Shown piece by piece: positions 1 through 24,549 of a stretch of 34,846 nucleotides of DNA; position 1 is the first letter of the stretch, and each line of letters starts with the position of its first letter. Under the pieces are notes generated by a model. The model was given only the letters and a program-made list of their open reading frames with translations. It was not told the DNA's origin and did not search any database. The position numbers were made by a program, and so were the translations under genes. Source of the DNA: Bacteroidales bacterium (GTDB taxonomy: Bacteria > Bacteroidota > Bacteroidia > Bacteroidales > Muribaculaceae); NCBI GenBank assembly GCA_910575615.1, contig CAJTEX010000027.1, positions 1 through 34,846 of the forward strand. The letters run 5' to 3'.

Positions 1-111
1 AAGCGACCAAACTTTTCCTTTAAATTACTAAATTCCAGGGACTTTTGCAAATTTAATCACTTGAAAATTAGATGTTTAACAGCATAAATTTAAATTTTGT
101 CATCTACTAAA
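1..111. mobile_element. Terminus of a repeated element, inserted in hsdR
   Basis: Bases 1-111 are the exact reverse complement of 34727-34837. The match stops abruptly at base 111, where the hsdR coding sequence begins. This is what the outer end of a repeated insertion element looks like. The terminal bases, read outward-in from hsdR, are TTTAGTAGATGACAAAATTT and supply the stop codon for the broken hsdR. No transposase is visible because the element runs off the window. The element family is not recognised. Confidence 0.7.
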
Positions 112-1660
112 AAATCGTCTTCTTGTCATCATCACCTAGTGCTTCTTCCTCTGTATGTGCCTTTGCTTTTTCAAGAGCAACAGCTTTTCGCAAATCTATG
201 TCATCATAAGTGGGACACATCACTGGATTAAATCCCAGCACATTGCCGTCCCTGATACCGTCGGGCATAACATATCGGTGCAGTTCGTCGCCGAATAGAG
301 AGACAGTGGTGTTCATGTTCTTTTCATATTCCGGCATAATCGGTGTACCGGTAAATCCGAAGAACAGTGCCATCGGGAAAGTTTCTCTGATGGTTGGATA
401 CATCTCTCCGAAAACAGAGCGGTGTGCTTCGTCAACGATAAACACAATCTTCTTAGCCCGAATCTGCTCCAGCTCGTTTTTTCGCTGTTGCATATTCTCC
501 TCATTGATACGACTCATCTTCTGAATGGACGTAACAATAAGTTTATCCTTTGAATCGGAACTTTTTAGCTTTGTGATTAATTTGTTGGTGTTGCTTGTGT
601 CCTGAACGGTATCTTCCTCGGCAAAGCCTGAATACTTTTTGTAGCTCTGATCTCCGAGTTCGATACGGTCAACAAGAAAGACAACCTTTTCAGCATCTTC
701 ATTAGATTGGGCTATAAGCTGGGCACTCTTGAAACTGGTCAATGTCTTACCGCTACCGGTCGTATGCCATATATGTCCGCCAAGCTGGTCTGACACCTTC
801 CAGTTATGTTGCTGAACCTTTTGAAATATGCTTCTTGCGGCGTAATACTGGTAACTGCGCATGACCTTCAATATGCCGTCGCCTTTGTCCGGGACAGTGT
901 AATATCCTATGAGCTGATGTGCCATAGGAATAGACAACAGAGTCTCTGCAATATCGGGCCAATCATTTATCAATTCGTTATTGAAGTCTGCCCAATGAAA
1001 GAAGAAATCTGGATTGAATTTGCCATCTGGTCCGGGATTTGCAAAATACAGTGTCTCTTCCGGATTCATGGCAACGAATATCTGAACGAGAGAGAATATT
1101 CCATCGAATACCCCCGAACCCATGTATCGTTCAATCTGATTACAGGCATTTCTCACAGGTACACCGCTACGTTTCAGTTCCACATGGATTAACGGCATAC
1201 CGTTTATGAGCAGCGTGAAATCGCCCCGTCGTTCGCCCAATATCTGGGAATTGGTTGTAAACTTAGGCTGACGGGCTATTTGATAAACCGTATCATTAGA
1301 ACCGATTTTTTGCTTATCATATACGATAAGGCTGACAGTTTTACCATTATGTAGTGTATCATTGGCGTTATCGCGGATAATCGACACGCTTTTGCCATTG
1401 ATAAATTCGCTATTCAGACGCAATGGTGTACGGAGGTCCATCACTTGCTGAAGAACCTGCTGCATCTCTCCATCAGTTAAAGGACAGCCATTCAGACAGT
1501 CTATGCCATTATTTATTTTTGAGAGTATCTGCCGCCAGTTCTCAATAAGATCTGCTTCCGTGGGGTACATCAATACGGGTTGTTGCCCCCAACCCTTACG
1601 GCGGAGAGCCTCAACCAATGCCACCTCAAATGGGGTCTCTTTATTAAATTTCTCTGCCAT
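107..1660 (-). pseudogene. hsdR: Type I restriction subunit HsdR, C-terminal half missing
   Basis: HsdR is the nuclease and translocase subunit of a type I restriction-modification complex. The 517 residues present contain the N-terminal PD-(D/E)xK nuclease region (D147, then E161-L-K163), Walker A HTTGSGKT at 299-306, the DEAH box at 410-413 and motif III TGT near 437. Full-length HsdR proteins are usually around 1000 residues. Helicase motifs IV-VI and the C-terminal HsdM-binding part are absent because the frame runs into the repeat at 1-111 and stops at TAG. The start lies 3 bp beyond the hsdS stop, so it is the last gene of the operon. The truncated product should not translocate DNA, which would leave modification without restriction. 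An alternative is that the window is a contig ending in a repeat; the break in hsdR would still be real if reads cross base 111. Confidence 0.85.
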
Positions 1661-1663
1661 AAC

Positions 1664-2884
1664 TTATACAAACATTTTATCGAGCATAGCTTGTTTCAAA
1701 TTTCGCAACTTATCCAACTTTTGCTCGTTAAGCTGGATAAGTCGGTCATATCCTGATAAGATGTCTGAAATTGCTTTTTGCTCTTTCTCGGCTGGAACAA
1801 GCATTTTATATTCGAGCATCTTGTCAATTTTTAGCACTCTGTTACGTCCGGCACTTCCTGGAGATGCCAGTGTTAGATGCTTCCTAAATCGATTGTTAAT
1901 TAAGGCATAGCGAAAGAATATCGGCACATTCTTCTCTTTAAATGAAAATTGTGGGAAACGATGGGACACTAATTTCCCCTCATCGGATGGTTCCGTTATG
2001 GCAACGGCTAACTCCCATCCGAAAGTAATGTTTACAATCAGATTGTTAGGACGTACTACACCCATCTGTGCAGTTTCAAGTTCTGCTCCTTTCGGTACGT
2101 AACTGTGAAATGTACCTTTGCCATGACTCCTTATGCCTAACCGGTCATAACCATCATGAGGGGTTTCTACAATTTCTTTATAAGGAGTAATGATTTCATC
2201 AAGACTTTTTTCTGTCCATGCTTCAGTAAATCCATCTAATCTAACACGAGGCTTAGTTTCTTCTCCTTGAGGTAAAAGAGATGTGAGCAATGCAGCTCTT
2301 AAGTTGCGTAATTTTTCACAAACATCCACTTGATGAGAAATCAGCGCATCAATATTTTTGAATGATTCCGTTATCTTAACCTGTTCATCTCTCTTCGGGA
2401 AAATTACATTCCCTAATATTGCCTCATCATCTCCGACATTGAGAGTATTCTTAGCTCCTTTGTGAACAAGTGGGCGAAGATAATCATTCAGACGTTTATC
2501 TTTATCAAAGAATGTCTGAATGAAATCAGGCTCAATATTGTCGTTTGGATGATATATAGCATAGAGCGCAGACACAATTCCAGGAACACCTTTGTTGGTT
2601 TTAATAATTCCGTATGGTTGATCTCTCAAGGGTGATTTGGTATATATAATGTCATTTGTTTCCGCAATACCATAGCCAGTTACGGAAGCACCGGCAAATG
2701 AACGTCCTTGGTATTCTATCTGGTTGATAACACCAAATTCACGAGATACAGACAACACATCTTCTTTACCAAACGTATTGTCTCGGTTTTTAGCTTTGGA
2801 CGTTGTCAGATATTCGGACAAAGGCAATTTGTCCCAATCCCCTTCAAATCCGGCAAAACGTATTTCAGGAACTTTACTTGCCAT
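1664..2884 (-). CDS. hsdS: Type I restriction-modification specificity subunit HsdS
   Basis: HsdS recognises the two halves of the target sequence and docks HsdM and HsdR. The 406-residue protein has the classic duplicated plan: target recognition domain 1 (about 1-180), a central conserved helix containing LRNLRAALLTSLLPQG (about 193-208), target recognition domain 2 (about 215-375), and a C-terminal conserved helix ending LRNLKQAMLDKMFV. The two helices resemble each other (LRNLRAALL and LRNLKQAML), as expected for the two spacer arms. The gene overlaps the end of hsdM by 11 bp and is followed 3 bp later by hsdR, so the three are co-transcribed. No second hsdS or inverted TRD repeat is visible nearby, so there is no sign of a shufflon. 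The target sequence cannot be read from the protein alone. Confidence 0.93.
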   Translation of the reverse strand: MASKVPEIRFAGFEGDWDKLPLSEYLTTSKAKNRDNTFGKEDVLSVSREFGVINQIEYQGRSFAGASVTGYGIAETNDIIYTKSPLRDQPYGIIKTNKGVPGIVSALYAIYHPNDNIEPDFIQTFFDKDKRLNDYLRPLVHKGAKNTLNVGDDEAILGNVIFPKRDEQVKITESFKNIDALISHQVDVCEKLRNLRAALLTSLLPQGEETKPRVRLDGFTEAWTEKSLDEIITPYKEIVETPHDGYDRLGIRSHGKGTFHSYVPKGAELETAQMGVVRPNNLIVNITFGWELAVAITEPSDEGKLVSHRFPQFSFKEKNVPIFFRYALINNRFRKHLTLASPGSAGRNRVLKIDKMLEYKMLVPAEKEQKAISDILSGYDRLIQLNEQKLDKLRNLKQAMLDKMFV

Positions 2885-5477
2885 GATTAAGGAGATTTTT
2901 AAATGATTCCAATGCCTTCATGTCAAAGTCGTTTCCCCGCAAAGAGACTACCATATCCGAAAGTTTTGACTCAGAGTAAGAAATTGACTTCTCTACATCA
3001 TTGAGAGTGACCGAGTATTTGGACACAAGAGCTTCAACCTTGTCTATAAGCGTTGAGATAACATTTGTATGTTCAGCTTTCACTGCATCTACTACCGGCA
3101 TGACCCATTTGAGACGAAGCAGTTCTCGGATTTGGTCCTCAGAGAGCGACTCTATTGTGAAGATTGTCTTCACTTCGAGTTCGTTCATCGCGTCCTTTAT
3201 CTCAGCTTTCAGTCGTTTCTGTTCATCGGCATTCTTAGTAAGAGCGATTATGTGAGCCTCCATGCTCCCATCGGAGAACTGCGGTAGGTCGGTATATTTC
3301 CTCTTCTTATACTCTTTGAGCATAAGTTTAAGCTGAGCTTTGACTTTCTTGTTATCAAAGGCATCACCATCGTCAGTGAGAATCTCAGAATCTTCCTCAC
3401 CGGCTTCTTCGAGCAAAACAGAAACTTCGCCAACTGTTTCAGCAAGTTGGTTCTTCAGCTCATTAACTTTGTCAAGGTATTCAGGAAGGAGCGTCCGCTG
3501 AACAAGGTCAAAAGGCATTATGCGTCCCTTCCATCCTTTCTGAACTTCGTCTTCTTCATCTCCGTTCTTGACTATGACCATGTTCGGTTCAATTTTTTTG
3601 AGAACCTCAATACCTTCAGTCTGAATGATTTCAATATCAGTAGCTGTTTGCTCCCAACAATCATTGAGTGCTTGGAATGCAGCGTACCGATCGAGCAACG
3701 GAACTGTAGAAAGACGCCCGAACAAGTCTTCGCCTAAGATGTCAACCTCTTTGGCAACATTGAGTGTCATCATCCCATCAATGAGTTGGGCGATGAGATA
3801 TTGTTCGTAATCGCCAAAAGCAGAATTATACGCTGCTTGGAATTTCTTTATATCATCATGATTCCGAATGGTGTCACCAACATTGTCTGACAGACATTCC
3901 ACATATTCACCTTCAGGGAACAAAGTGGATTTCAAGGCAGGCATTACCTCCCAATAATCTTTGAGTAGTTCGATTTCAGTACGAGGCACACCGCCGAGAA
4001 GCGAAGAGTATAAATCCCATTTCTCAACAGCGTCAGAGGAATCGACATATTTGGGTATATTGAGGTCGTATTCGTTTTCGAGAATCTCTTTCAGGCTCAC
4101 GAGACGTGCGAATTTATCAATGGAGGCAGGGCGGGTGGTTACGGCATCAAAAATTCGCTTAATATCAGAAGCTTGGAGTTTCTTTTTCTTACCATCCTTA
4201 GAAGCATATTTTGAGGCATCAATAAAAAGCACGTCTGTGTTATCACGATTGGCTTTCAGCACCATAACAATAGTGGCAATCGGAGTCCCGAAGAAAATAT
4301 CAGCCGGGAGTCCAATTATTGCCTCAATTTTGTTCTGCTCAATTAGATTCCTTCGGATTTCGGCTTCATCACCGGGTCTGAACAGTACACCATGAGGCAA
4401 CACGATAGCCATAATACCATCGGATTTTAGGTGGTAGAGATCGTGAAGCAGAAAAGCATAGTCTGCTTTCTTTTTCGGGGCTAATCCATAATCCTTATAT
4501 CTGGGGTCGGAATCCTTATCGGATGGCCTATCCCATTCCTGAGAATAAGGCGGATTGCTGACCACGGCATCCATCGGACGGTATTCGTAAGAGGTTTCCT
4601 TGTCATCGTCCTCAAACATAGGCCAATCACTACCATGCTCCAGAGTGTCGCCGTTGCGGGTGATGATGTTGTTTGGTTTAATGCCGCGCATCACCAAGTT
4701 CATGCGCGTGAGGTTGTAGGTGTTGCGCTTCAACTCCTGTGCGTAATATTTGATATTGTCCGGACTGTCGTTGTGTTTCGCAACGGCACGTCCAATTGTA
4801 ATGAGCAGGGAGCCGGAACCACTTGTTGGGTCATAAATCTCAATCTTCTCTCTGTCGCGCAGATGATGAGCCACAATCTCGGCCATGAGTACAGATACCT
4901 CGTGTGGAGTATAGAACTCTCCAGCTTTCTTACCGGCCGAAGCCGCGAAATTGCTGATGAGATATTCGTATATGTAACCAAGGACATCATATCCTTGGTT
5001 TCCGTCCATAGGAATATCTTTAATAAGTTGAATTAGCTTTCTTATAGCTGTAGAGCGGTTTGTATCAGAATCGCCAAGGTTCTTCAATCCTGTTTCAAGA
5101 GTATTGAAGATGCCTGAGAATACTTTCTTGTGAGTGGGGTAAATCAAACGGTTGAATGCTGACAATGCCTCAGAGACATCTTTCACACCAAAGTCAGTGC
5201 CTTTATTGAGCCACGTACTGAAAAGATTTTTGTATCCTATGAAGTAGCCACGATTTTTACGGACATATTCGGTGTATTCAGGATCATTCTCTTCTTCAAG
5301 CGTAGGCATATCTTCTTCGCTCCAGCCCTCACTATGGTAGAAGTTCTCAATCTCTGTGCTCAGATAGCGATAAAAGATGAAGCCAAGAATATAATCCTTA
5401 TATTCATTCGCCTCAATCTTAGAGCGCATTTTGTTTGCTGAAGCCCATATTTTGGAAGCTAATTGCTGCTTGTTCAT
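2874..5477 (-). CDS. hsdM: Type I restriction-modification DNA methyltransferase HsdM
   Basis: This is an N6-adenine methyltransferase that modifies the HsdS-defined target using S-adenosylmethionine. An N-terminal HsdM_N helical domain (about 5-150) precedes the catalytic N6_Mtase domain, which carries the SAM-binding motif DPTSGSG at 216-222 and the catalytic NPPY at 308-311. At 867 residues it is much longer than E. coli-type HsdM (about 530). The extra C-terminal third (about 520-867) is rich in Glu/Lys and looks helical or coiled-coil; long HsdM proteins of this layout are common in Bacteroidetes. It follows the 159-residue gene after 19 bp and overlaps hsdS, so it is an internal operon gene. 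It appears intact and probably still methylates DNA even though hsdR is broken. Confidence 0.95.
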   Translation of the reverse strand: MNKQQLASKIWASANKMRSKIEANEYKDYILGFIFYRYLSTEIENFYHSEGWSEEDMPTLEEENDPEYTEYVRKNRGYFIGYKNLFSTWLNKGTDFGVKDVSEALSAFNRLIYPTHKKVFSGIFNTLETGLKNLGDSDTNRSTAIRKLIQLIKDIPMDGNQGYDVLGYIYEYLISNFAASAGKKAGEFYTPHEVSVLMAEIVAHHLRDREKIEIYDPTSGSGSLLITIGRAVAKHNDSPDNIKYYAQELKRNTYNLTRMNLVMRGIKPNNIITRNGDTLEHGSDWPMFEDDDKETSYEYRPMDAVVSNPPYSQEWDRPSDKDSDPRYKDYGLAPKKKADYAFLLHDLYHLKSDGIMAIVLPHGVLFRPGDEAEIRRNLIEQNKIEAIIGLPADIFFGTPIATIVMVLKANRDNTDVLFIDASKYASKDGKKKKLQASDIKRIFDAVTTRPASIDKFARLVSLKEILENEYDLNIPKYVDSSDAVEKWDLYSSLLGGVPRTEIELLKDYWEVMPALKSTLFPEGEYVECLSDNVGDTIRNHDDIKKFQAAYNSAFGDYEQYLIAQLIDGMMTLNVAKEVDILGEDLFGRLSTVPLLDRYAAFQALNDCWEQTATDIEIIQTEGIEVLKKIEPNMVIVKNGDEEDEVQKGWKGRIMPFDLVQRTLLPEYLDKVNELKNQLAETVGEVSVLLEEAGEEDSEILTDDGDAFDNKKVKAQLKLMLKEYKKRKYTDLPQFSDGSMEAHIIALTKNADEQKRLKAEIKDAMNELEVKTIFTIESLSEDQIRELLRLKWVMPVVDAVKAEHTNVISTLIDKVEALVSKYSVTLNDVEKSISYSESKLSDMVVSLRGNDFDMKALESFKNLLNHGK

Positions 5478-5496
5478 ATATAATCAGTCAAATGAG

Positions 5497-5976
5497 TTAA
5501 TAGCCCATCTTCTTATTTAAATCAGCCACCCTCGTAAAGAGCTCAAAAGTAGACGAATTATTTGCTAGGCATTCTATAAGAATTTGAGCAATCTGTTTCA
5601 TGTCTTCCTGATATGCCATACGAGAATCGGCACCCCTTGGCTTACCATTCTGCGCACGGTGTCCTCGGGTTAGGAATGTTTTAATTTCCTCACGTACCAT
5701 TGCCCTGGCTTTCTTGTAGGCGTCACCAGACGGTAGAATCTTGCGAAGGAACTTCTCTATAACTTTATAGAAAAGTTCATATTTCTCTTCTGGAGAGTCA
5801 ATTGACTGAGGTATGAGTGTAGTCAATTCATCAATTAGTTCGACATTGCCATTGTCGTCGAAGCTAAGTGTTGGTGCTTTTGGCATCTCTGTCGCTGCAA
5901 GAATCGATTGAAGTTCATAATCTATCTCATTGGATTTGCCAATTTTTTCAATATGTAGTTCCTTATCCTTAGACAT
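5497..5976 (-). CDS. Small unknown protein between the ImmA/IrrE gene and hsdM
   Basis: I do not recognise this 159-residue family. It is acidic and mostly helical in appearance: a variable N-terminal stretch (about 1-60), a helical block with IDSPEEKYELFYKVIEKFL, a basic patch (TRGHRAQNGKPRG, about 104-116) and a helical C-terminus ending LNKKMGY. No signal peptide or membrane segment is seen. Its ATG lies inside the end of the upstream protease gene (the shared bases ATGTCTAA contain both the start and the protease stop), so translation is coupled. It sits 19 bp before hsdM. The position suggests a partner or substrate of the protease, or an R-M accessory factor. That is inference only. Confidence 0.8.
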   Translation of the reverse strand: MSKDKELHIEKIGKSNEIDYELQSILAATEMPKAPTLSFDDNGNVELIDELTTLIPQSIDSPEEKYELFYKVIEKFLRKILPSGDAYKKARAMVREEIKTFLTRGHRAQNGKPRGADSRMAYQEDMKQIAQILIECLANNSSTFELFTRVADLNKKMGY

Positions 5977-7204
5977 ATATTGTTTGTTTTAAATCAATTA
6001 TTTTGTTGATGGGTAGTGCTTCGTTCTCAGGGTTTTCCGAAAAGCAAACGGCGTTTAGTCCCTTTAGCATTTCATCGGTTTTGGGAATTCGAGATGTGTA
6101 TTTCTTCCAATCGCTTGGGTGTGAATAACAATGGATGCTGTAAACGATAGACGGATGCACTCTCCATTCTTTGCAGTAAGATTGCACTATAGCAGGAGAA
6201 TCTAGATATGGCGTTATCATTTTATGATTATCTCCATTCAAGAAGTAGTCGCTCGCGAAATTGTCGCATCGTTCTTCATCGAGCAAAAGAAGATCTCCAT
6301 CGCCATCAGAAATATGATACTGGTATTCGCGAATTAAATCTAGGTGAGATAGAACGTGGCATAGTTCGTGTAGTAAAGCAAACCAAACAGTTGGGTATCG
6401 ATTATTATAATCAGAAAGAATTATGCAGGGTTTATCATTTACAACGAGCGTGGCTCCCCTAAGATGCAAATCTTTTATTGTTGGCTGATATATTACGGTT
6501 ATTCCAAGCCTATAAAGCGCTTTTACAACAGTTATTAAACCTGTTTTTTCGTTTAGCGTACAGGCTCTTATACTTGGAATAAGCCTAATTAGCGCAGCTC
6601 TATCGTATGAATATGGGTTATTTATTATTTCAAATACATGAAAGGCTGAGCTCAACCAAAACTCACGCATAAGATCGCTTTTGCTTTTTCGACGTATTTG
6701 GCTAAATGCTTTGACTAGAGGGGTGTCGCAATATTCGTACAAATTATTCAATCCGAAATATTCAATGATGCGTGCTTTTAATTCAGGGACAGATGCTCCT
6801 TTCTTAAAAAAGCCTATTTTGGTTAAGGCTCCTACATCGAAGTGTGCCATAATGTAGGCGGCATCTTTAGCTAGCTGTATATCGGATATTTGCGATGGGG
6901 ACATATCTTGAAGGGATAGCAAGAGGACTTCATCCAAAGTTGTATTGAGAAAGTAAGCTAACTTTATCATTGTAAAAAGGCTTATTCTCTTCGCCTCCCC
7001 GTCTAATATGGGTTTTACTTGTTTAGCATCTAAATCCAGCATCTTGAACACGATATTATCCGTCAAATTCAATTCGGCTTTTCGTGCATTGAACTGTTCT
7101 TTCAGCGACCCATATACAATCGCAGATGGATCTTCAGACACAATGTCTTTGATCAATCCGGAGAATAGTTCTACATCAGATATGTTCGGTATGAAATTTT
7201 CCAT
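5969..7204 (-). CDS. HTH and ImmA/IrrE-type zinc metalloprotease regulator
   Basis: The 411-residue protein has an XRE-like HTH segment (about 35-95) and a C-terminal ImmA/IrrE (COG2856) domain. The zinc-binding motif HELCH is at 279-283, with a downstream acidic stretch DEERCDNFASDY (about 309-320) that supplies the expected third metal ligand. ImmA of ICEBs1 and IrrE of Deinococcus cleave repressor proteins, so a role as a sensor-regulator of this operon fits. It is the first gene of a tight five-gene operon ending in hsdMSR and overlaps the next gene by 8 bp. A promoter and two inverted repeats lie directly upstream. The -7 box ends only 5 bp before the ATG, so the mRNA may be nearly leaderless if this start is used. 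No key residue seems missing. Confidence 0.88.
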   Translation of the reverse strand: MENFIPNISDVELFSGLIKDIVSEDPSAIVYGSLKEQFNARKAELNLTDNIVFKMLDLDAKQVKPILDGEAKRISLFTMIKLAYFLNTTLDEVLLLSLQDMSPSQISDIQLAKDAAYIMAHFDVGALTKIGFFKKGASVPELKARIIEYFGLNNLYEYCDTPLVKAFSQIRRKSKSDLMREFWLSSAFHVFEIINNPYSYDRAALIRLIPSIRACTLNEKTGLITVVKALYRLGITVIYQPTIKDLHLRGATLVVNDKPCIILSDYNNRYPTVWFALLHELCHVLSHLDLIREYQYHISDGDGDLLLLDEERCDNFASDYFLNGDNHKMITPYLDSPAIVQSYCKEWRVHPSIVYSIHCYSHPSDWKKYTSRIPKTDEMLKGLNAVCFSENPENEALPINKIIDLKQTIYV

Positions 7205-7208
7205 GTCG

Positions 7209-7240
7209 CAAAATTACTAATATTTGTTTATATATGCAAA
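7209..7240 (-). promoter_or_regulatory. Promoter of the protease-hsdMSR operon
   Basis: On the minus strand, TTTG (7240-7237) and TAATTTTG (7216-7209) are separated by 20 nt. This matches the Bacteroidetes -33/-7 pattern, with the same spacing as two other promoters in this window (higBA and the type II endonuclease). It ends 5 bp before the ATG of the HTH-protease gene, which implies a very short or absent 5' leader. Confidence 0.65.
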
Positions 7241-7244
7241 TAAT

Positions 7245-7264
7245 GTTTGGAAAATTTTCCAAAC
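7245..7264. promoter_or_regulatory. Perfect 20-bp palindrome, candidate operator
   Basis: GTTTGGAAAATTTTCCAAAC is its own reverse complement and sits 4 bp upstream of the -33 box of the protease-hsdMSR operon. A second inverted repeat with the same TGGAAA half-site (7343-7358, ATGGAAA and TTTCCAT around AA) lies about 95 bp further upstream. Shared half-sites point to one DNA-binding protein; the HTH-protease encoded just downstream is the obvious candidate. The link is inference. Confidence 0.55.
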
Positions 7265-7342: not shown

Positions 7343-7358
7343 ATGGAAAAATTTCCAT
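7343..7358. promoter_or_regulatory. Second TGGAAA inverted repeat, candidate operator
   Basis: ATGGAAA and TTTCCAT flank a 2-bp AA spacer. The half-site matches that of the perfect palindrome at 7245-7264. Two related sites about 95 bp apart would allow cooperative or looped repression of the operon. Binding is not shown. Confidence 0.4.
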
Positions 7359-7453: not shown

Positions 7454-7957
7454 TTAGTAGAGGCGGATGCAAGTGACGTCGGCTTCTTTGACGGTGGCCG
7501 GGTGGTCGGGCTTTTCTTTGGAGAAGGCGAGGGCGAGGTGCTGGATGCGGTGTGTCCGACCGAGTTTTTTGAGTAACACGATGAATTTGCTGAGTTCATC
7601 GGTGAGCCAATCGTCATCGTTGGTTGAAGTGACTCCTCCGAGTATCATCACGTTGTCGGGTAGATGAGCGGCACCTTCCGTCGCCGTCAGTATTACGAGC
7701 GACACGGCAAAGGTCGCATCTTCGGAGGTCAGATTGGCCCCGTTGGTGTACTCCTTATATTGCAGCTTCGCGGTCGGAGTGCCGAAGTTGTCGGCGAGAT
7801 ATTTCTCGATGTCGGCGAGTGCTGCTTTCAGTCGAGGGTCGCTTACGACCGATATGTCGGTGGGCGGTTCTGCGCTTGTTGCAGCGTTGGTAGCGGGTGT
7901 AGCCTTGCGGCCGAAGATGTTTTTTACACGCGAAATGAGGTTGTTGAATGCTGTCAT
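7454..7957 (-). CDS. Unknown protein at the end of the mobilisation operon
   Basis: I do not recognise this 167-residue family. A short basic N-terminus (about 1-20) leads into an Ala/Thr/Pro-rich linker (about 21-40), then a compact mixed alpha/beta-looking domain from about 40 to the end (ATFAVSLVILTATEGAAHL, then LSKFIVLLKKLGRTHRIQHLALAFS). No clear membrane segment or catalytic motif is seen. It overlaps the upstream 226-residue coiled-coil gene by 4 bp and so is translated with the relaxase genes. Its place in a mobilisation operon suggests an accessory to DNA processing or to the host cell surface, but no function can be assigned. Confidence 0.75.
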   Translation of the reverse strand: MTAFNNLISRVKNIFGRKATPATNAATSAEPPTDISVVSDPRLKAALADIEKYLADNFGTPTAKLQYKEYTNGANLTSEDATFAVSLVILTATEGAAHLPDNVMILGGVTSTNDDDWLTDELSKFIVLLKKLGRTHRIQHLALAFSKEKPDHPATVKEADVTCIRLY

Positions 7958-8652: not shown

Positions 8653-9627
8653 TTACACACTTCTGCCTCTTTTTCTCTTTTGGCGGCGTTTCATCTCGTT
8701 GATGAATGCCTCTTCTTCCGGGTCGTAGGCAGGTCCGACTTGGAAGAGACCACCGAGTGCATTGCCGAGTCCTTCGACCATATCGGCACCGGCTTCAAGC
8801 ACTTTGTCGACTGCACTTGGTTCCTGTTTAGGCTGCTGAAGCATAGGTTTCGGCGAGGGCGATGTCGGCTGGGACTGTCGGTTTTTATTCCGGTTAAGAG
8901 CCTTGCAGATGACATCGTAGGAGCATCTGCCGTTGCGGTCAACCTGCGAAGCCTTGAACTTTTGCCCGTCCTTGAAGTAGGAAAGACCATCGACTTCGGT
9001 AGAACCACGTCGGAATTTTTTCCTTACTGTTACACCTTTTTGTGCGAGTTCGCGCTGAAAAGTAGTCCAGTCCTTTGCCGATCTTTTGGCGGCTTGAACG
9101 GCGAGATAAATCTCCTGTCGGATTTTCGGCCGTCCTTTCAAACTTTGGGTTTTCACGTTGTCTTTGTTCTCACCATAGGTCAGACCATACTTTTGTTTCA
9201 TCTCGTCGCATATCTCGTTGTTGCGATAATATTCGAAACTGTCACTTACACATTTGCCGTCATTGTCCACCCGATTATAGACGATGTGGCAGTGCGGATG
9301 CTCCTTATCAAGATGCCGGGCTATGATAAACTGGGTGTTTTTAATGCCCATTTTATCCATATATTCCAGCGCAAGTGTCACCATAAATTCATCGCTCATG
9401 CGCTCCGCGTCTTTCGGAGAATAGGATAAAGAGATGTGTCCGCACCAGTGCTGAACCCTGCTGTTGAGATGTCGCTGACACTCAAAACCGTCGATAATAT
9501 CTTTCGGCGTGTCGGTCAACAGACCCTCGGAATAGAGCAGACGAGCCTCCTTATTTTTCTCTTTCAGCGCGAGAGCATACTCCACGCAGCCGGAAAAACA
9601 GCTGCCTTTAGTTATGCCTCCAATCAT
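8653..9627 (-). CDS. Relaxase/mobilisation nuclease (MobA/BmgA-like)
   Basis: Relaxases nick oriT and lead the transferred strand into the recipient. This 324-residue protein shows the family's three-histidine motif, H105-L-D-K-E-H110-P-H112-C-H114-I, and a Tyr near the N-terminus (Y17 in CVEYAL) placed like the nicking tyrosine. The N-terminal 200 residues form the relaxase domain; the C-terminal third is basic and Pro/Gln-rich, ending KRRQKRKRGRSV. The start overlaps the mobC gene by 20 bp, so the two are coupled. No transfer (tra) genes or coupling protein are in the window, so the element should be mobilisable rather than self-transmissible and would depend on a helper conjugative element. 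Confidence 0.92.
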   Translation of the reverse strand: MIGGITKGSCFSGCVEYALALKEKNKEARLLYSEGLLTDTPKDIIDGFECQRHLNSRVQHWCGHISLSYSPKDAERMSDEFMVTLALEYMDKMGIKNTQFIIARHLDKEHPHCHIVYNRVDNDGKCVSDSFEYYRNNEICDEMKQKYGLTYGENKDNVKTQSLKGRPKIRQEIYLAVQAAKRSAKDWTTFQRELAQKGVTVRKKFRRGSTEVDGLSYFKDGQKFKASQVDRNGRCSYDVICKALNRNKNRQSQPTSPSPKPMLQQPKQEPSAVDKVLEAGADMVEGLGNALGGLFQVGPAYDPEEEAFINEMKRRQKRKRGRSV

Positions 9628-9973
9628 AAGACAGTCTTGAATAAAGTGTTTTTATTTCCTTGCTCAGACCTTTGAGAGACCACTCCACGAGTTTGAAACC
9701 CGCTTCGTTTGCCTTCTTTGCAAGCTGATTCAGATTATTCGCCATGCTCCCGATCTGACGCAGAATCACCATATCATCGGGTGTGGCTACTGCCGTAACC
9801 TTGGCGTTGAGCAGAGCGTGGCGCCAGAAGTCGGATAGCTTTCTGCCGGATTTTAGACAGTTTTCCTGTACGGTCTGATACTGGTCTTCATTGAGCCTGA
9901 CACTGACAACGTATGACTTGCCGGACTTCTCGGTTGCTCCCGGAGGAGCTTTCTTTCTTCTTGTGAATGTCAT
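9608..9973 (-). CDS. mobC: Relaxosome accessory protein MobC
   Basis: MobC-family proteins bind oriT and help the relaxase open DNA. This 121-residue basic protein has an N-terminal ribbon-helix-helix-like stretch (about 20-55, SYVVSVRLNEDQYQTVQENC) and the MobC core (about 68-105) with IGSMANNLNQLAKKANEAG, a strong family signature. It overlaps the relaxase start by 20 bp. The start lies beside a 185-bp gap with inverted repeats, which is the likely oriT. Confidence 0.9.
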   Translation of the reverse strand: MTFTRRKKAPPGATEKSGKSYVVSVRLNEDQYQTVQENCLKSGRKLSDFWRHALLNAKVTAVATPDDMVILRQIGSMANNLNQLAKKANEAGFKLVEWSLKGLSKEIKTLYSRLSYDWRHN

Positions 9974-10158
9974 TGTCTTGGGATTTTGGAATTTGACATT
10001 GTGACCATCGGGAACGGACTCCAGCCGCCCGGTAACGGAGGATGCAAGGTCGGGAATGTTTACATTGCCAGTACCTTGCTATCCTCCTATTCCTTACAGA
10101 ATATCCGGATACCGGCGTTGCTGATGTCTTCGCCATTTTCACTGCCTTGGGGCAGTGG
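9974..10158. other. Candidate origin of transfer (oriT) region
   Basis: This 185-bp non-coding gap lies directly upstream of mobC and the relaxase, the usual oriT position in Bacteroides mobilisable elements. It contains an inverted repeat GCAAGGT (10044-10050) and ACCTTGC (10073-10079) around 22 nt, a TATCCGGATA palindrome (about 10102-10111), and a perfect 7-bp hairpin CACTGCC-TTGG-GGCAGTG (10140-10157) just after the stop of the DUF3408 gene. The last hairpin could instead end that transcript. The nick site cannot be placed by eye. Confidence 0.5.
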
Positions 10159-10569
10159 TCAGAACGATTTACTGATTAAGGTGAACCAGCCTTCATAGTT
10201 GGCGGCGTTATTGTCGAGATGTTCATTGATGATGTGCTCGACAAAGTTGCTGACGCTATAACCGGGACCGCCGAAGAATCGGGCAGTGCGTTCGACTCGG
10301 TCAAACGTCTCATTGCTGATTGCTACCTGATGCTTGTTGTCCTTGCCGAGTTTAATCGGGGCAAAGAAAGCGGTGCGGTAATCTTCGAGTTCGCTCTTGC
10401 GCTGCTTGGCGGTGGGGCGGGTTGACTTGGACTGAGCGGCTTCGCTCTGTTCAGCAATGGGCTGAACTTCGGGGTTGGTAGGATTTTCCATAGTTTCCGA
10501 GAAAATTGAATTGTTAGACATACCAGTCATTTCGGATGACTGAGGATTCGAGATTTTTGATTGTGCCAT
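10159..10569 (-). CDS. DUF3408-type element protein
   Basis: The 136-residue protein has a low-complexity N-terminus (about 1-50, Ser/Asn/Gln/Glu-rich) and a conserved C-terminal domain. The C-terminal pattern KLGKDNKHQVAISNETFDRVERTARFFGG then SVSNFVEHIINEHL is typical of DUF3408 proteins of Bacteroides conjugative and mobilisable elements, which resemble ribbon-helix-helix DNA-binding proteins. It sits between the toprim-like gene and the oriT region, with a single base between its start and the upstream stop. A role in DNA partition or relaxosome regulation fits the context but is unproven. Confidence 0.8.
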   Translation of the reverse strand: MAQSKISNPQSSEMTGMSNNSIFSETMENPTNPEVQPIAEQSEAAQSKSTRPTAKQRKSELEDYRTAFFAPIKLGKDNKHQVAISNETFDRVERTARFFGGPGYSVSNFVEHIINEHLDNNAANYEGWFTLISKSF

Positions 10570-10570
10570 T

Positions 10571-11356
10571 TCATTCAGATTTTAGTGAGCTTTCGCTCGG
10601 TTTGTATTCTTCGATGCCTACGAGTTCCAGCTGTAGTGCGTCAACAAGTTGCCGCAGTGCCGGATTTCGTTGCATCATTTGTTCAAGTATACCGTGTGGA
10701 GTCTGCTCGGCAATCAGGAAGTCTGCAATGTCGAGACCTTGGTCACGCTGCTCATCGGTAGCCATCTGTTCAAGCGATTCAAACAGAGTTGCCTTTATTC
10801 CCGAATCATTGAATAGCGACAGTCTCTTGCGCCAATCGTCTGTAGCGTTTAGGTCGGGTACCAGCATCACCTCTCTGCCTCGGAGTGCTTGGATTGCCTC
10901 GCGGTTGAGACAACTGCACTTGCCGCCTGTGGCGAGCCACAGATATTGCGGGAGGTAATGAGTCGCGAGCATTGCCGTCTTTTCACTCTCCACAATGGCA
11001 ACCGGCTTGTCGCGGATGTATGGGAGCAGGTGCTCACCGAAGAAACATTGGATTAACTTGAAGTCGGGCAGTTTCAACACCGAGTGTACCCAGTTGATGT
11101 GGGGGAACGGTTCCTGCACACGATGTCCGGTCAATCGGTTATACAGCATAATCTTACCACCACGGACATTGCCGTCAGCCGAGATTTGCCAGAATACTGT
11201 GGCACCTTGCCAATGCTTCGATGTGCCCACACGATACATTTCCATCAATCGTCGTGCTTCATCACTTCCAATTATCGCCGCCACGAAAGCAAAGAGATTG
11301 TTCCGGTCGTAGCCACGCATGGTGGCCGCCACCATTGCATCATCAATCCTGCTCAT
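10571..11356 (-). CDS. DUF6371/toprim-like primase-associated protein
   Basis: This 261-residue protein matches the DUF6371/toprim-like proteins that accompany DUF3987 helicase-like proteins in Bacteroides mobile elements. Visible features are RRLMEMYRVGTSKHW near 36-50, the toprim-like KPVAIVESEKTAMLA (about 117-131; the Glu is the expected catalytic residue) and a second acidic site VMLVPDLNATDDW (about 159-171). Toprim folds handle DNA strands in primases and topoisomerases, so a role in priming element replication is likely. The start overlaps the end of the DUF3987 frame by 14 bp. The gene looks intact, whereas its DUF3987 partner is frameshifted. Confidence 0.8.
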   Translation of the reverse strand: MSRIDDAMVAATMRGYDRNNLFAFVAAIIGSDEARRLMEMYRVGTSKHWQGATVFWQISADGNVRGGKIMLYNRLTGHRVQEPFPHINWVHSVLKLPDFKLIQCFFGEHLLPYIRDKPVAIVESEKTAMLATHYLPQYLWLATGGKCSCLNREAIQALRGREVMLVPDLNATDDWRKRLSLFNDSGIKATLFESLEQMATDEQRDQGLDIADFLIAEQTPHGILEQMMQRNPALRQLVDALQLELVGIEEYKPSESSLKSE

Positions 11357-12786
11357 CGGTAGTAACTTTGTTAGCGGAGTAACACGACAGCTTCTTATAC
11401 CACCCTTGGCGTATGCGACGGAAGAGAGTGTTGAGATTGCGGGTGAGGAACATCTTGAATGTGTGGTCTTTCATCCCGAACCGCTCGGCTATACGGATGC
11501 CGTCGGCGGTTGAAAATTCCTCGGTGAGATGCTCATACACGGTGCGGTGCAGTTCATTCAATTTCTCTTCGCTGATGCAGGTGAGTACACTGAGCGCGTT
11601 GCCCCGGAAGTATTCAGCCAATTCTATCGCTCTGGCCACGTCATCATCTTCGATGTCCGAGGGGCGCGGTTCTTCCTCGCTGACAGCCCAGCGAACCAAT
11701 CGGAGTATCAGGCAGAACCGGAGTACATAGATTTCGAGCTTGCAGAAGAAACTGACCACATTGTCGCTCATCTCATTATCGCATAGCGCGGCGTTCTCAT
11801 GTTGCCACTCATAGAGTCTGCGTTTGGCATCCGCAGTGAACCGCATGACAGTGGGTATTGGCTCTTTCTCCTCGTTGACCACACATTCTACCGAAAGAAG
11901 CCGGTTGAGTATGCGTTCCCATTCACGGTCGAGATTGTCGCGCACTTCATCCTCGTTCCATCTCGGTTTGCCGTTGCTCTTGGTCATAGCAAAGAGTATG
12001 CGGTCAATGACCACGAAGTAGGGCGAAGCTTGACTGAGCCAACCCGTTGGCGGCTCTCTCACCGTTGGCAAGTTCGGTGAGCAGACGTTTCTGGATTGTT
12101 CCGACCACCGAAATGAACGGACGCTTGATGAAGATGGAGTTCTGACAATTCTTGCGGTCAGACATAGTTGTGCTGCCGTTGAAAGCCGAAAGCCAGAATT
12201 GTTCTTCCGAGCCGGTGTTGTAGCGGGTGAAGTTCTTGAACCATGCCGACAACTCATCAACCCAAAGGCATAAGCCACGGGGATTATGGGAGTGAATGGC
12301 ACTCAGACCCTCCTGCGTCACGTCCGACACGAGGTATCGCAGACGCTTAGGCTCTTTCGGGAATTCATCCAGTCCGACACTGATGCGTTCCTTACGACTC
12401 ATAGCCACAGCCTGCTGATACTCGCAATGTTTTTTCTGAAACTCCTGATTGTTTTTCCAGTCGGCATTGACAAGCGGTCGCATCACGAATGTAAGTGGGT
12501 GTGACTTGCAATCTCCGGGACGTCCGACAATCGCTATATACACGATTGCCGATTCCTGCCAGTTGCGTTTCACTTCGATTCGGTGGGTATTGCCGATTGC
12601 CACGGATATGGCGGCAATCATAGCCGATGCCGTGTAGTCAATCGGAAATCCGCAGGTGGTGTTGAGTTCGAGGATAATCCGTTGCATCTTGGCGGGGAAC
12701 ACCTGCACCGGGAAATCACTGTCGGATGTCTTGGCGTGATTCATCAACGCGCTGATCACAGAGTCCGGGGTAATATTCTTTTCCAT
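11343..12786 (-). pseudogene. DUF3987 helicase-like replication protein, frameshifted
   Basis: Two frames together make one DUF3987 protein of about 480 codons. The N-terminal part (12786 to about 12042) has the P-loop-like GRPGDCKSHPL and ends in frame at GERAANG. The C-terminal part (from about 12010 down to 11343) resumes in another frame with VIDRILFAM. Family members read NGFIDRILF-like across this join. The two halves are separated by an extra stretch of about 31 nt (12011-12041), one more than a multiple of three. Read straight through, the first frame stops at 12004. DUF3987 proteins usually serve replication of mobile elements with a toprim partner, which is the next gene here. An assembly error is possible but unlikely for an insertion this size. 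Confidence 0.75.
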
Positions 12787-12790
12787 AGGC

Positions 12791-13177
12791 TCAGAAATTA
12801 TAGCCCCCTCGGGGACGGCGTTTCATACCGGCAGTGATGGCCGCTGCTGTTTCGGCAAGGGAAGGAGCGGCGGAGTGTTTGCGACCGCCTTCAATCCATG
12901 CATAGATTTCGTCCTCATAGAAATAGAGGAGCTTGCCGCGCTTGTAGCTCGGAATGGGGTCATTCGGAGCCTTGACCGCGCGGTAGAGGGTCGAAAGTGA
13001 CTTGCCGATTATCTGGCAAGCCTCTTTCGCATACACGAGTCTGCGTGAAGGCTTGGACTGCTTGGAGTGGCCGGCGATGCCTGCCTTTTCAAGCAGGTCA
13101 AGCACTCGGTCGAGTTTCTCGGAGAGACCGCTTACCACATGTGGCAGCTGGTCGAAAGTTGGTGTTGATGTTTCCAT
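12791..13177 (-). CDS. Helix-turn-helix (excisionase-like) DNA-binding protein
   Basis: The 128-residue protein has an N-terminal helical segment (about 10-35, LPHVVSGLSEKLDRVLDLLEKAG) and a HTH_17/MerR-like domain (about 48-95) with RLVYAKEACQIIGKSLSTLYRAV, then the wing YKRGKLLYFYEDEIYAWIEGG. Proteins like this lie first in the DUF3987 to toprim to mob operon of Bacteroides mobilisable elements and act as excision or operon regulators. The stop is 4 bp before the DUF3987 start. An inverted repeat CGGTTTTA/TAAAACCG (13185-13192 and 13209-13216) lies just upstream of the start and could be its operator or a leader hairpin. Confidence 0.85.
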   Translation of the reverse strand: METSTPTFDQLPHVVSGLSEKLDRVLDLLEKAGIAGHSKQSKPSRRLVYAKEACQIIGKSLSTLYRAVKAPNDPIPSYKRGKLLYFYEDEIYAWIEGGRKHSAAPSLAETAAAITAGMKRRPRGGYNF

Positions 13178-17276: not shown

Positions 17277-17765
17277 ATGGACAGAATCACTCAATCACTC
17301 CAGGCATATCTGAAGTCTGCCAAGATTAAGTATCAGACCCTTTTTAATTCTGATACGGGAAACAAAAATGGTAATCCCACTTCAACAAGTTTTCATGTTA
17401 GGAACTCAGAAGATCCTAGTCAAGTTGCGGACATCGTAATAGATATATTTCCCAGAGATAGTCAAATTTTCCTTTCGGCTCATCCCAGAATAGTTATTGA
17501 TGGTGAAGAAATAGGCAAGATAAAGGCATTGGAAACCAAATGGAATGCATGTGGATTGTTTACCAGAATAAACATATCGGAAGAAATGGGCGTAGTGGAG
17601 GATGACCGATATTATTTCTCGTTAGTGGTTCAAGGCATAAGCGACCCAAATGGACCGTCGAAATATGTTTGGAAGAGGTATATTGAAATTCTTAAAAGCG
17701 ATACATTTCAAGCATGGAATAAAATAGTTACATTGTCTATACCCAAATATGCAGTCCCAATCTAA
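17277..17765 (+). CDS. Unknown protein downstream of the deiminase
   Basis: I do not recognise this 162-residue protein. It looks like a soluble alpha/beta domain. The beginning, ITQSLQAYLKSAKIKYQTLF, resembles the first helix of YbjN/type III chaperone-like folds, followed by alternating strands (DIVIDIFPRDSQIFLSAHPR, FTRINISEEMGVVEDDRYYF) and a final helix. That fold similarity is only an impression. It lies 22 bp after the deiminase gene on the same strand and is probably co-transcribed. Its stop overlaps the stop of the convergent AraC-type gene by 4 bp. No membrane segment or catalytic motif is seen. Confidence 0.75.
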   Translation: MDRITQSLQAYLKSAKIKYQTLFNSDTGNKNGNPTSTSFHVRNSEDPSQVADIVIDIFPRDSQIFLSAHPRIVIDGEEIGKIKALETKWNACGLFTRINISEEMGVVEDDRYYFSLVVQGISDPNGPSKYVWKRYIEILKSDTFQAWNKIVTLSIPKYAVPI

Positions 17766-18652
17766 TCAGCCAAGCCGACCCACAACTCCGTAATCAATTC
17801 CTCCGCAGGTACATCGGTGGGGGAATTGAGGTATTTCTCCATATACGGGGCTGTTATGTCAATACTTAAATCACTATTGTTAATTGTAGTAATAACCTCA
17901 TCATAAAATGAGGTTAAGCCATCATAATTGCCTTTGTGTGTAAATACGGCATATTTTCGTGCCGGAATTAATCTCCAGCCAATACTACCGGGGATAACTT
18001 TATTGAGTTCTGACGAATGGATTCCTTGAAATAAGATGCCGGAAATGAATGTTCCCGAATATTTATCATCAGAGATATATCTATCTATTGCAAAACCAAC
18101 ATATCCTGATGCTTTTGCCTTTGGATGCCTTGTCAAAACAAATGCTTCGATTTTATTCCAATTATCCGTCTCAAATTCACAGGTTGAGCACTCATCATAA
18201 TGAGTCTCCAACTGTTTGTAAAAGAGTAAGCATTCGGACATATACTCTTTCCTGAAAGGAAGATGAATGGCAGAATCATTGACAATCATGCTTCTGAGAG
18301 AGTCGATATTAGCGACACCGTTTTTTCGCATCAGCCTATAAATCCCGTTCGGACAGTTAAAACCTAATGAGTATGCCGCTTGCGCTTTTGAAACGGCAGG
18401 GTATAATCTGAATATACGGGCTGCATATTCGGCACGTCTTTGGGAAACATAGTTCACCAGACTCTGACCGGTATATGCTTTAAAATAATCTCGTAAACTG
18501 CGCGCGGACAATCCGGACGCATGTGCCAATGATGATACTGAAGTGGCATCGTTGAAATCCTTGTCACATATACCATCAAAAGCGGCCGACTCTTCAATGT
18601 GCCTTAACACAATTTGAAGTTTCTTTTCAATATCCTTCAGAATTATTCCCAT
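17762..18652 (-). CDS. AraC-family regulator with GyrI-like ligand domain
   Basis: The 296-residue protein combines an N-terminal AraC helix-turn-helix pair (about 35-110; SVSSLAHASGLSARSLRDYFKAYTGQ split, then QRRAEYAARIFRL and KAQAAYSLGFNCPNGIYRLM) with a C-terminal GyrI/BmrR-like effector domain (about 140-296; GYVGFAIDRYI, IGWRLIPARKYAVFTHKGNY, PYMEKYLNSP). This domain order occurs in Rob/MarA-related ligand-responsive activators, whose GyrI domain binds small cationic or lipophilic molecules. It converges on the deiminase/unknown pair with a 4-bp overlap, so it may regulate that locus. TAATTTTG (18689-18682), a -7 box match, lies 30 bp before its ATG. Confidence 0.9.
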   Translation of the reverse strand: MGIILKDIEKKLQIVLRHIEESAAFDGICDKDFNDATSVSSLAHASGLSARSLRDYFKAYTGQSLVNYVSQRRAEYAARIFRLYPAVSKAQAAYSLGFNCPNGIYRLMRKNGVANIDSLRSMIVNDSAIHLPFRKEYMSECLLFYKQLETHYDECSTCEFETDNWNKIEAFVLTRHPKAKASGYVGFAIDRYISDDKYSGTFISGILFQGIHSSELNKVIPGSIGWRLIPARKYAVFTHKGNYDGLTSFYDEVITTINNSDLSIDITAPYMEKYLNSPTDVPAEELITELWVGLAD

Positions 18653-22232: not shown

Positions 22233-23339
22233 TTATTTCAGCGAGATGGAATTAGCGGCATCGCGCTTCTTTTGGTTCACGACCTCTGCATAGATCTGGG
22301 TGGTGGCCACGTTTTTATGTGTTAGCATTTTGCTGACAGTGTAGATGTCAGTGCCGTTGGTTATCAGCAATGTAGCATAAGTGTGGCGCAGACCGTGAAA
22401 TGAGATTTTCTTCTTGATACCGGCATCTTTGAGCCATTTCTTGAACGGCTCGCGGGTGTGGGCGCGGCTCAGACCTTTGAATACCATGCCTCGACCTTGT
22501 TCGCCACAGTACGACAAGGCTTCATCACTCAATGGCAATGTAGCCTGCGTCTTGGTTTTCTGAGTGCGGATGCGCATACAATAGCCGCCATCGGGCGACA
22601 GTTCGATATTCTCCCAACGGAGTTGAAGAATGTCGCTGATACGAAGTCCGGTCATGCAGGCGAAAAGTGATGCTCGTTTCAGAACATCAACTTTACAAGG
22701 TGTAGCTGCTAACTTCTTAACCTCCTCGATTTCGAGATAGTTTATTTTCGGTTCCTCCCAATCGATGCGATCCAGATAGTCATTGACATTTTCCCGAAGC
22801 CAGCCTTCCTTATATGCCAGTTTTAGCAGAGCGCGGAATGTTGACCAATATCCGGCTGCTGAGTTGCGCGAAATAATATTGCCAGTCTGCTTCACCCGGA
22901 TTTTAAGAATGTATGTTCGGAAGTCGTTACATAGGCCGATGGTTACGTCTTTCATCAGACATCTGCCATTGCAGAAGTCCTTGAAGTGCTTATACACGAT
23001 TTCCCATTTCTGATATTTCTCTTTGGTCTTGCTCTCGAAGTATTCAAGAAAGTCAGCCTGCTTCTTTGTACGGTCGAGGAAACCAAACTCCTCATTTATG
23101 ATAGCCAACTCGCGGGTGGCACGGATGCCACGTGCTTTGAGCATGATTTCCTCGTTGTAGTCAAGCTCAAACTTATCCTTAGGATTACCGATGAGATACA
23201 GCCCGAGGAACTCCCGGCGCGACATCTTTTTGATGTGCGGATTCCAGATTGGTGGGTAGTAGTCGAGGTAGAGCGACAGTTTGCCGCTGCGGAGTTTCTC
23301 TTTTCGGAGGGTCACTTTGGTGATGGTTGCAGATTCCAT
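22233..23339 (-). CDS. Tyrosine recombinase (element integrase)
   Basis: This 368-residue integrase catalyses site-specific insertion and excision of the element. It has an arm-binding N-terminus (about 1-90; SGKLSLYLDYYPP is typical of Bacteroides integrases), a SAM-like core-binding domain (about 95-190) and a complete catalytic domain. The catalytic residues are visible: R233 in TGLRISD, H315 and R318 in HGLRH, H341 in LTHKN and the nucleophile Y350 in QIYAEV. It is intact. It lies 1.2 kb from the 3' end of mnmE, and the quadruple-HTH gene upstream is probably its regulator or excisionase. The most likely target is just after mnmE. Confidence 0.93.
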   Translation of the reverse strand: MESATITKVTLRKEKLRSGKLSLYLDYYPPIWNPHIKKMSRREFLGLYLIGNPKDKFELDYNEEIMLKARGIRATRELAIINEEFGFLDRTKKQADFLEYFESKTKEKYQKWEIVYKHFKDFCNGRCLMKDVTIGLCNDFRTYILKIRVKQTGNIISRNSAAGYWSTFRALLKLAYKEGWLRENVNDYLDRIDWEEPKINYLEIEEVKKLAATPCKVDVLKRASLFACMTGLRISDILQLRWENIELSPDGGYCMRIRTQKTKTQATLPLSDEALSYCGEQGRGMVFKGLSRAHTREPFKKWLKDAGIKKKISFHGLRHTYATLLITNGTDIYTVSKMLTHKNVATTQIYAEVVNQKKRDAANSISLK

Positions 23340-23386
23340 ATTTCTTTGTTTTAGATTTATAATGTGTAAGCGAAAGAGGTGGTTGC

Positions 23387-23406
23387 CCGGTGAGAGAAAT
23401 CACCGG
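23387..23406 (-). terminator. Hairpin between the HTH regulator and integrase genes
   Basis: CCGGTGA and TCACCGG form a perfect 7-bp stem with a 6-nt loop, 2 bp after the stop of the quadruple-HTH gene and 48 bp before the integrase start. It could attenuate read-through into the integrase gene. There is no T-run. Confidence 0.5.
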
Positions 23407-23407
23407 A

Positions 23408-24301: not shown

Positions 24302-24411
24302 CTCATTTGTGGAGATTTCTCCGTTGTTTGTAAATGTTCGTAAACCATTGACAACCATTGTCAACTTTCTCCACCACCTTGCTGACGCTTGGGGTGAAAT
24401 GAGTCGCTGTC

Positions 24412-24431
24412 GTACAAAATCCGTACAAAAT
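24412..24431. repeat. GTACAAAAT direct repeats with 11-bp period
   Basis: GTACAAAAT occurs at 24412-24420 and 24423-24431. Read toward the integrase it is TTTTGTAC twice, one helical turn apart, just outside the mnmE terminator. The same layout (TAGTACAC twice, period 11) precedes the second integrase at 33344-33362. They are candidate integrase arm or core sites. Confidence 0.6.
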
Positions 24432-24441
24432 AGTGCATAAA

Positions 24442-24477
24442 AACGCCTAACACTGACAGTTATCAGCATTAGGCGTT
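24442..24477 (-). terminator. Intrinsic terminator of mnmE
   Basis: AACGCCTAA and TTAGGCGTT form a perfect 9-bp stem with an inner CTGA/TCAG pair, followed on the minus strand by a T-rich stretch (GGCGTTTTTATG). It lies about 75 bp after the mnmE stop. It marks the end of the chromosomal transcription unit and so limits where the element boundary can be. Confidence 0.75.
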
Positions 24478-24549
24478 CTTGTAAGATTTAAGTTTTATCG
24501 TTCAGTAATAGTCAATTGCTGTCAATATAACGCATTGATAATCAACTAA

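Follow-up and report, generated by a model that had tools for sequence, protein, structure and literature searches.

A conserved HTH-protease gene pair of Bacteroidota joined to a type I restriction-modification block in a Muribaculaceae genome

The stretch of DNA considered here (the window) is a whole contig (C27) of 34,846 nt from a member of the Muribaculaceae (Bacteroidales). It carries five adjacent genes on the minus strand, which encode an ImmA/IrrE-type metalloprotease with a helix-turn-helix (HTH) domain, a 159-residue partner protein (p159) and the HsdM, HsdS and HsdR subunits of a type I restriction-modification (R-M) enzyme. Comparison with relatives indicates that these are two units joined to each other, and not one five-gene R-M system. 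The conserved unit appears to be the protease-p159 pair with its spaced palindromes, and no description of such a pair has been found. Judged from the sequenced relatives, the two-gene module is widespread in Bacteroidota and its joining to type I R-M is rare. We suggest, with a probability of about 0.55, that the five genes form a composite operon, in which a self-contained, autoregulated toxin-antitoxin-like or defence-control module had hsdMSR placed behind its promoter once. The case cautions against taking five neighbouring genes for one system: two units were joined, once as far as is seen.

Results

The protease-p159 pair

The protease gene (5969..7204; 411 aa) stands first and is followed on the minus strand by the genes for p159 (5497..5976), HsdM (2874..5477; 867 aa), HsdS (1664..2884; 406 aa) and the N-terminal 517 residues of HsdR (107..1660). 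The protease and p159 open reading frames (ORFs) overlap by 8 bp, hsdM follows p159 after 19 bp, hsdM and hsdS overlap by 11 bp, and hsdS is separated from hsdR by 3 bp. The original prediction had described five same-strand frames with these overlaps and gaps, and the ORF coordinates bear it out. HsdM, HsdS and the N-terminus with the ATPase part of HsdR are recognised by Pfam (N6_Mtase 1.2e-97, Methylase_S 2.5e-8 and HSDR_N 7.5e-20, respectively) and by PADLOC. They are encoded side by side in the window, and a full-length set is present in locus L009, a contig of a Bacteroidales metagenome-assembled genome (MAG). The predicted type I R-M identity stands for hsdM and hsdS and fails for hsdR as a whole gene, the window holding a 517-aa N-terminal fragment of it.

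Relatives of p159 were collected with a five-sequence alignment searched against genome contigs (30 loci). Further searches covered genomes of the order (a match in 4 of 393) and of the family (2 of 397; the window's own match is counted in both), plasmids (one record) and viral contigs (no locus with the single sequence, and one locus, at a contig edge, with the alignment). This gives 36 p159 loci including the window, with L006 dropped as lying on the same contig as L017; L036 and L038 share the same protease match and are perhaps near-duplicates, and both are counted. The protease gene adjoins p159 in 33 of the 36 loci, the three others being at a contig edge (L027), preceded only by a 97-aa ORF (L008) or a remnant (L095). 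hsdM is found at two of the 36, the window and L009, and at 2/30 among loci with at least 1.5 kb downstream. Besides the window, no further R-M-linked relative was found in the 393 genomes of the order, where one p159 lies at a contig edge, or in the 397 of the family. Of 295 genomes of the order searched with the protease alignment, 11 had a match at an E of 1e-20 or lower: four strong matches with E below 1e-130, all at p159-carrying loci, and seven distant ones.

The gene order of the window, which could have been peculiar to one genome, is thus also that of L009, and the protease and p159 form a conserved pair as had been supposed. The expected neighbourhood of the p159 family holds on its protease side, but usually not on its hsdM side. 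The proposal that p159 is a partner of R-M is not supported by the same counts, and both hsdM-bearing loci share one block; the candidate role of an R-M subunit is rejected.

These counts also bear on the idea of a restriction guard, in which the pair would sense inactivation of the type I enzyme and kill or stop the infected cell, by analogy with PrrC, which pairs with a type I R-M partner. The block has stayed together in two genomes with different surroundings, and in L009 a SIR2-domain gene stands behind hsdR, which would suit a guard. However, hsdM is missing from 34 of the 36 loci (six of them with less than 1.5 kb downstream), so that HsdM cannot be a general requirement of the pair, and hsdR is broken in this genome. 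We regard a guard as very improbable.

The next ORF of at least 60 aa after p159 lies on the opposite strand in 16 of 32 loci. Six genes after p159 in non-R-M loci were scanned with Pfam and PADLOC and gave one known defence family. In Aquimarina (L016) an ApeA-like HEPN gene (9585-10814; Pfam ApeA_NTD1, 8.6e-27) starts 194 bp after p159 and has the same orientation. In a Flavobacteriaceae MAG (L033) a gene at 2686-3759, 9 bp behind p159, has a start that looks SIR2-like by eye, but neither Pfam nor PADLOC matches it at E 0.001. A precedent is the CapH+CapP system, an HTH repressor and a protease controlling operons of the cyclic oligonucleotide-based antiphage signalling system (CBASS) and other immune operons (PMC13373217). 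The likeness lies in an HTH and a protease before a defence operon, and CapP is the best-ranked solved fold for the window protease. Unlike CapH+CapP, with its separate repressor and protease genes, the present locus has one fused 411-aa protein, p159 is added to it, and hsdM follows at only two of the 36 loci.

One may think of the pair as a portable defence controller, a switch resembling a fusion of CapH and CapP, with sensing or co-repression as the task of p159, which would stand before various effectors and here would induce R-M on damage or infection. The CapH+CapP precedent, CapP as the closest fold of the protease, hsdMSR behind the pair in the window and L009, the ApeA-like gene and, unconfirmed by any library, the SIR2-like-looking gene are in its favour. 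The single known defence family in the scan of six genes (besides hsdM), the opposite-strand neighbours in half of the loci and the fusion of repressor and protease argue against it, and we consider it possible with the odds clearly against it. The confidence figures of the explanations overlap, and several of them can hold together.

Promoter and palindromes

The minus strand of 7500-1600 was scanned with a Bacteroidetes-type promoter consensus and contains a sole full-consensus match, TTTG-N20-TAATTTTG at 7240-7209. This is the putative promoter (7209..7240, minus strand), and 4 bp separate its -7 box from the start codon of the protease gene. A full-consensus promoter, with a 23-bp spacer, precedes the protease of L009 too. 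Upstream of the -33 box lies a perfect 20-bp palindrome, GTTTGGAAAATTTTCCAAAC (7245..7264), a putative operator. It has 9/9 pairs in the tested 18-mer (palindrome TTTGGAAAATTTTCCAAA), which was equalled in 0/200 shuffles, ruling out a chance origin; its counterpart in L009 is imperfect (8/9 pairs, P ~0.10). A 16-bp palindrome, ATGGAAATTTTTCCAT (7343..7358), is a possible extra operator. A putative promoter and two inverted repeats, as claimed for this region, are present in the window; the palindrome at 7358-7343 is not seen upstream of the L009 protease.

Palindrome pairs were compared in 28 loci, L005, L011, L013, L023, L027, L038, L008 and L095 being excluded; pairs of 18-mers from -150 bp to +90 bp of the listed start were scored by palindromy and mutual similarity. 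The best pair has a spacing of exactly 53 bp in 18 of the 28 loci; 20 loci fall within 52-54 bp, which corresponds to 13 of 19 clusters at >80% protease identity (counted by hand). Among 197 other ORF starts in these loci, taken as control, 7 have the 52-54 bp spacing, 6 of them at 53. The sequence of the palindrome varies between clades (e.g. TGAAGAAAATTTTCTTCA, TTAGGTAAATTTACCTAA, TTATGTAAATTTACATAA), whereas the spacing remains at about five turns of DNA. We read the paired palindromes as two putative operators of the HTH-protease near its own promoter; in some loci the two sites flank the promoter, as judged by eye. Since the spacing recurs in 20/28 loci against 7/197 controls, the pair seems to be self-regulating.

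The loci without a best pair at 52-54 bp are the window, L009, L017, L032, L033, L035, L036 and L007. Pairs with this spacing and shorter motifs were noted post hoc in L017, L032, L033 and L035 (ranks 1-11 of 90 by motif length) and stay outside the 20/28. A 53-bp partner site was sought in the window without success; there is a weak match at 57-58 bp, which extends into the start codon and is not seen in L009.

The controller may be drawn more narrowly, as a portable proteolytic switch with p159 as its undescribed third part, a promoter of its own and two operators five turns apart, coupled to R-M here, to ApeA in Aquimarina and to the SIR2-like-looking gene of the Flavobacteriaceae MAG. In the R-M-linked lineage, loss of the downstream operator would then have reset its strength and put R-M under protease control. 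We find this version doubtful.

The HTH-protease and p159

The 411-aa protein has a predicted HTH at about residues 34-94 and an HExxH motif at 279-283, with Pfam matches to Peptidase_M78 (0.0024) and HTH_26 (0.045) that both lie under the curated cut-offs. Its HTH part resembles lambda-type repressors and an immunity repressor in profile matches. The PADLOC model PD-Lambda-2_B (PDLC03982) matches it at 3.6e-17 and matches 29/29 family members; RmrA models reach 2.8e-5, one of them matching 26/29 members, and the capP model 0.0042. H279, E280 and H283 are invariant and E310 is near-invariant in 29 protease sequences. We base the assignment as a probable protease on the PD-Lambda-2_B match and the invariant HExxH residues. 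The predicted model has a mean predicted local distance difference test score (pLDDT) of 81.7, and its top-ranked PDB match in Foldseek is CapP (7t5t; probability 1.00, E 0.027).

For p159, the family has no known relatives. The window protein has no Pfam or NCBIfam match at E up to 0.1 and nothing at E 0.001 in PDB or BFVD fold searches; with its 31 relatives it matches no PADLOC model below E 0.01, and none of the PD-Lambda-2 models even when E values up to 0.1 are allowed. The best matches scatter over unrelated families, the lowest Pfam E being 0.00064 in 1/32 members. A known toxin, nuclease or DNA-binding family was considered and set aside, as no convincing match was obtained in Pfam, NCBIfam, PADLOC, PHROGs, PDB sequences, PDB folds or BFVD folds. 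The predicted model (mean pLDDT 72.8) is of low confidence at residues 1-17 and 31-53 and then has four helices across 62-157; R114, D117, R119, N154 and Y159 are among the invariant residues in 30 sequences.

The strongest model match points to PD-lambda-2, a defence system of E. coli. Its component B joins an Xre-HTH and a C-terminal peptidase in one protein, which is toxic alone and is rescued by a HigB-like partner (PMC9519451). It is this second component that the family matches throughout. In PD-lambda-2 a HigB-like gene comes first and a third gene is present as well, whereas here the protease is first and the partner comes after it. Component A is not seen, the ORF before the protease (7454-7957) having no Pfam or PADLOC match; nor is component C, p159 and its 31 relatives matching no PD-Lambda-2 model, although it was not established that PADLOC holds models of A and C. 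Membership in PD-lambda-2, as in CapH+CapP, fails on gene content. One may still suppose that roles are shared, so that the HTH-protease would be the toxic effector, p159 would restrain it and R-M would be an unrelated neighbour. The model match in 29/29 proteases and the reported toxicity of component B alone, with rescue by A, speak for this, but the lack of a visible HigB-like gene and of any PADLOC match of the p159 relatives makes it quite unlikely.

The layout also resembles RosmerTA, in which an ImmA-protease antitoxin, RmrA, often with an N-terminal HTH, is paired with varied toxins (PMC10440598). Both are two-gene pairs with an ImmA-type protease. The differences are that p159 matches no known toxin family, with no RmrT model reported for it, and that the RmrA match of the protease is weaker than that to PD-Lambda-2_B.

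The R-M-linked lineage

L009 carries the protease, p159, hsdM, hsdS and hsdR in the order of the window. The two loci share three homologous stretches at 85.8-87.2% DNA identity, beginning 68 bp before the protease start, and the identity by gene ranges from 79.5% (p159) to 88.7% (hsdM). The gap between p159 and hsdM is 19 bp in the window and 28 bp in L009. In hsdS, a 421-bp portion of the second half cannot be aligned between the two, and L009 has a Bro-N gene (12115-12996) between hsdM and hsdS, while its SIR2-domain gene (17343-18476) follows hsdR directly. The ratios of nonsynonymous to synonymous substitution rates (dN/dS) are 0.034 for the protease, 0.041 for p159, 0.067 for hsdM and 0.027 for the N-terminal part of hsdR, which indicates purifying selection on the four tested genes. 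mnmE lies upstream in both loci with only 66-70% identity in two aligned pieces. Because this is far from the ~86% of the block, the block was apparently gained as a unit and has been maintained as one.

The five closest HsdM relatives in two genome samples are 51-58% identical over the best segment and belong to Bacteroidota HsdM of the 860-920 aa kind; none of them has a protease-p159 pair before hsdM. A divergent gene precedes hsdM in L096-L098, and an ORF unlike protease or p159 in L073. In L072 a 64-aa ORF with an HTH look (6919-7113) lies 2 bp before the hsdM relative (58%, best segment) and may encode a small regulator for this related type I R-M operon.

With one lineage known, the junction could be a chance juxtaposition, in which the pair merely adjoined an acquired R-M cassette and hsdM has its own promoter, for which a -7-like box at 5551 is a candidate. 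This is compatible with the stand-alone half of the composite-operon reading. The gaps of 19 and 28 bp, the single strand, the conservation of the block from before the protease and the lack of a second full-consensus promoter in the window scan make it rather unlikely. Within the composite operon, as we suggest, hsdMSR is probably read through from the module promoter, because it follows p159 at 19 or 28 bp and has no full-consensus promoter of its own.

Discussion

We propose the following course for the composite operon. The HTH half of the 411-aa protein would repress the module promoter by binding to the nearby palindromes, and the ImmA/IrrE half, presumably a zinc protease, would serve as the trigger. 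A signal, for example single-stranded DNA or a phage component, would activate the protease. The HTH half or p159 would then be cleaved or released, the promoter would open and p159 would act. p159 is most likely an effector (toxin) held by the HTH-protease, by analogy with RosmerTA, with a co-regulator as the next choice. Expression of hsdMSR would presumably rise and fall with that of the module.

Several observations weigh against this reading. The window and L009, the sole R-M-linked loci, keep the upstream palindrome but are without its 53-bp partner, and L035, L036 and L007 have no such pair in the spacing test either. The shuffles are a lax control for pairs: the window (23 bp, P ~0.02) and L009 (21 bp, P ~0.00) beat most of 60 shuffles, and the 53-bp pair of L034 fails this control (P ~0.13). 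The lone -7-like box at 5551, inside p159 and 74 bp before hsdM, might serve as a promoter of hsdM, although L009 lacks it. The synonymous divergence (dS) between the window and L009 is unequal, from 0.56 (hsdM) to 1.9 (p159, near saturation), so that the genes may not share one history. No PDB fold match of the protease model reached E 0.001 in Foldseek, and the template modelling (TM) scores to CapP are 0.25/0.35. As p159 has no convincing fold or family match, its suggested toxin role is based on layout and analogy. Moreover, the HTH-peptidase of PD-lambda-2 is toxic alone (PMC9519451), which is the reverse of the role proposed here.

Protease control of R-M had been put forward as what would be a new regulatory design, but protease control of a defence operon is not new in kind. 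CapH+CapP is already described (PMC13373217), as is RptR (PMC12255303); the latter is a 9-kDa HTH repressor that binds TAGCTA, and its gene heads a type I R-M / DarTG2 island. In that island, too, an HTH repressor heads a type I R-M operon, palindromes lie at the promoter, and toxin-antitoxin genes are embedded with R-M. The present case differs in its 411-aa HTH-protease with a protease domain and its palindrome of 18-20 bp (TTTGGAAAATTTTCCAAA), with no 9-kDa repressor or TAGCTA repeats. Among titles and the beginnings of abstracts in the open-access literature, no description was found of a type I R-M operon headed by an HTH-ImmA gene. If the pair is a trigger, protease-switched control would extend from CBASS-type operons to type I R-M. 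The two proteins would then be a tractable example of repressor and protease fused in one chain, with directly testable operators and a partner whose family has no known relatives. The case also illustrates restriction operons acquiring toxin-antitoxin-like modules.

Split hsdR and the insertion sequence

A complete HsdR is missing from this genome. Residues 1-517 are encoded in the window and residues 514-1043 on contig C7 (138054-139643), close to its end; the intact HsdR of L009 has 1044 aa. The insertion-sequence end at 1..111 has a 100% identical copy at 34727-34837 (reverse), so that both window ends are one and the same insertion-sequence end; identical copies also lie at the ends of C42, C45 and C46 and inside C44. 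Diverged copies are found in C26 (76%) and C45 (72%), and between the ends of the C26 copy there is a 373-aa ORF, which we take to be a probable transposase. The two hsdR junctions have related terminal sequences (~85% over 20 bp) and, by eye, a common string of ~10 bp, as a target duplication would give. On account of the repeat at the window end, the remainder of HsdR on C7, the related termini and this string, we conclude that an insertion sequence has split hsdR in this genome, unless the assembly misled. With hsdR split in this way, restriction should be lost here; at most methylation should remain, and it may persist.

Surroundings

In L010, L012, L017 and L031 a whole or partial tyrosine integrase, recognised by similarity to that of the window, is encoded upstream of the protease, and because of this the pair may travel with small integrative elements. 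Elsewhere, the protease-p159 pair is preceded by AbiEi/AbiEii genes of the same strand (L036, 2924-4580), and a gene like the DNA polymerase III beta-clamp follows the pair after 46 bp (L024, 9476-10666). The L095 remnant (6597-6908) is a decayed p159 sequence with a stop and without a protease, among genes that look phage-like by eye.

The stretches 8653-9973 and 22233-26190 of the window encode a relaxase, MobC-like proteins and, next to mnmE, a tyrosine integrase with an HTH_17 gene at its side. Together they have the look of an integrative mobilizable element that lies at the mnmE 3' end. A search for repeats that would flank it or mark its border between mnmE and the protease gave none that were convincing. 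At 11343-12786 two overlapping frames share the coding of a DUF3987 protein, one with profile positions 3-223 and the other with 224-363, through a frameshift or a sequencing error.

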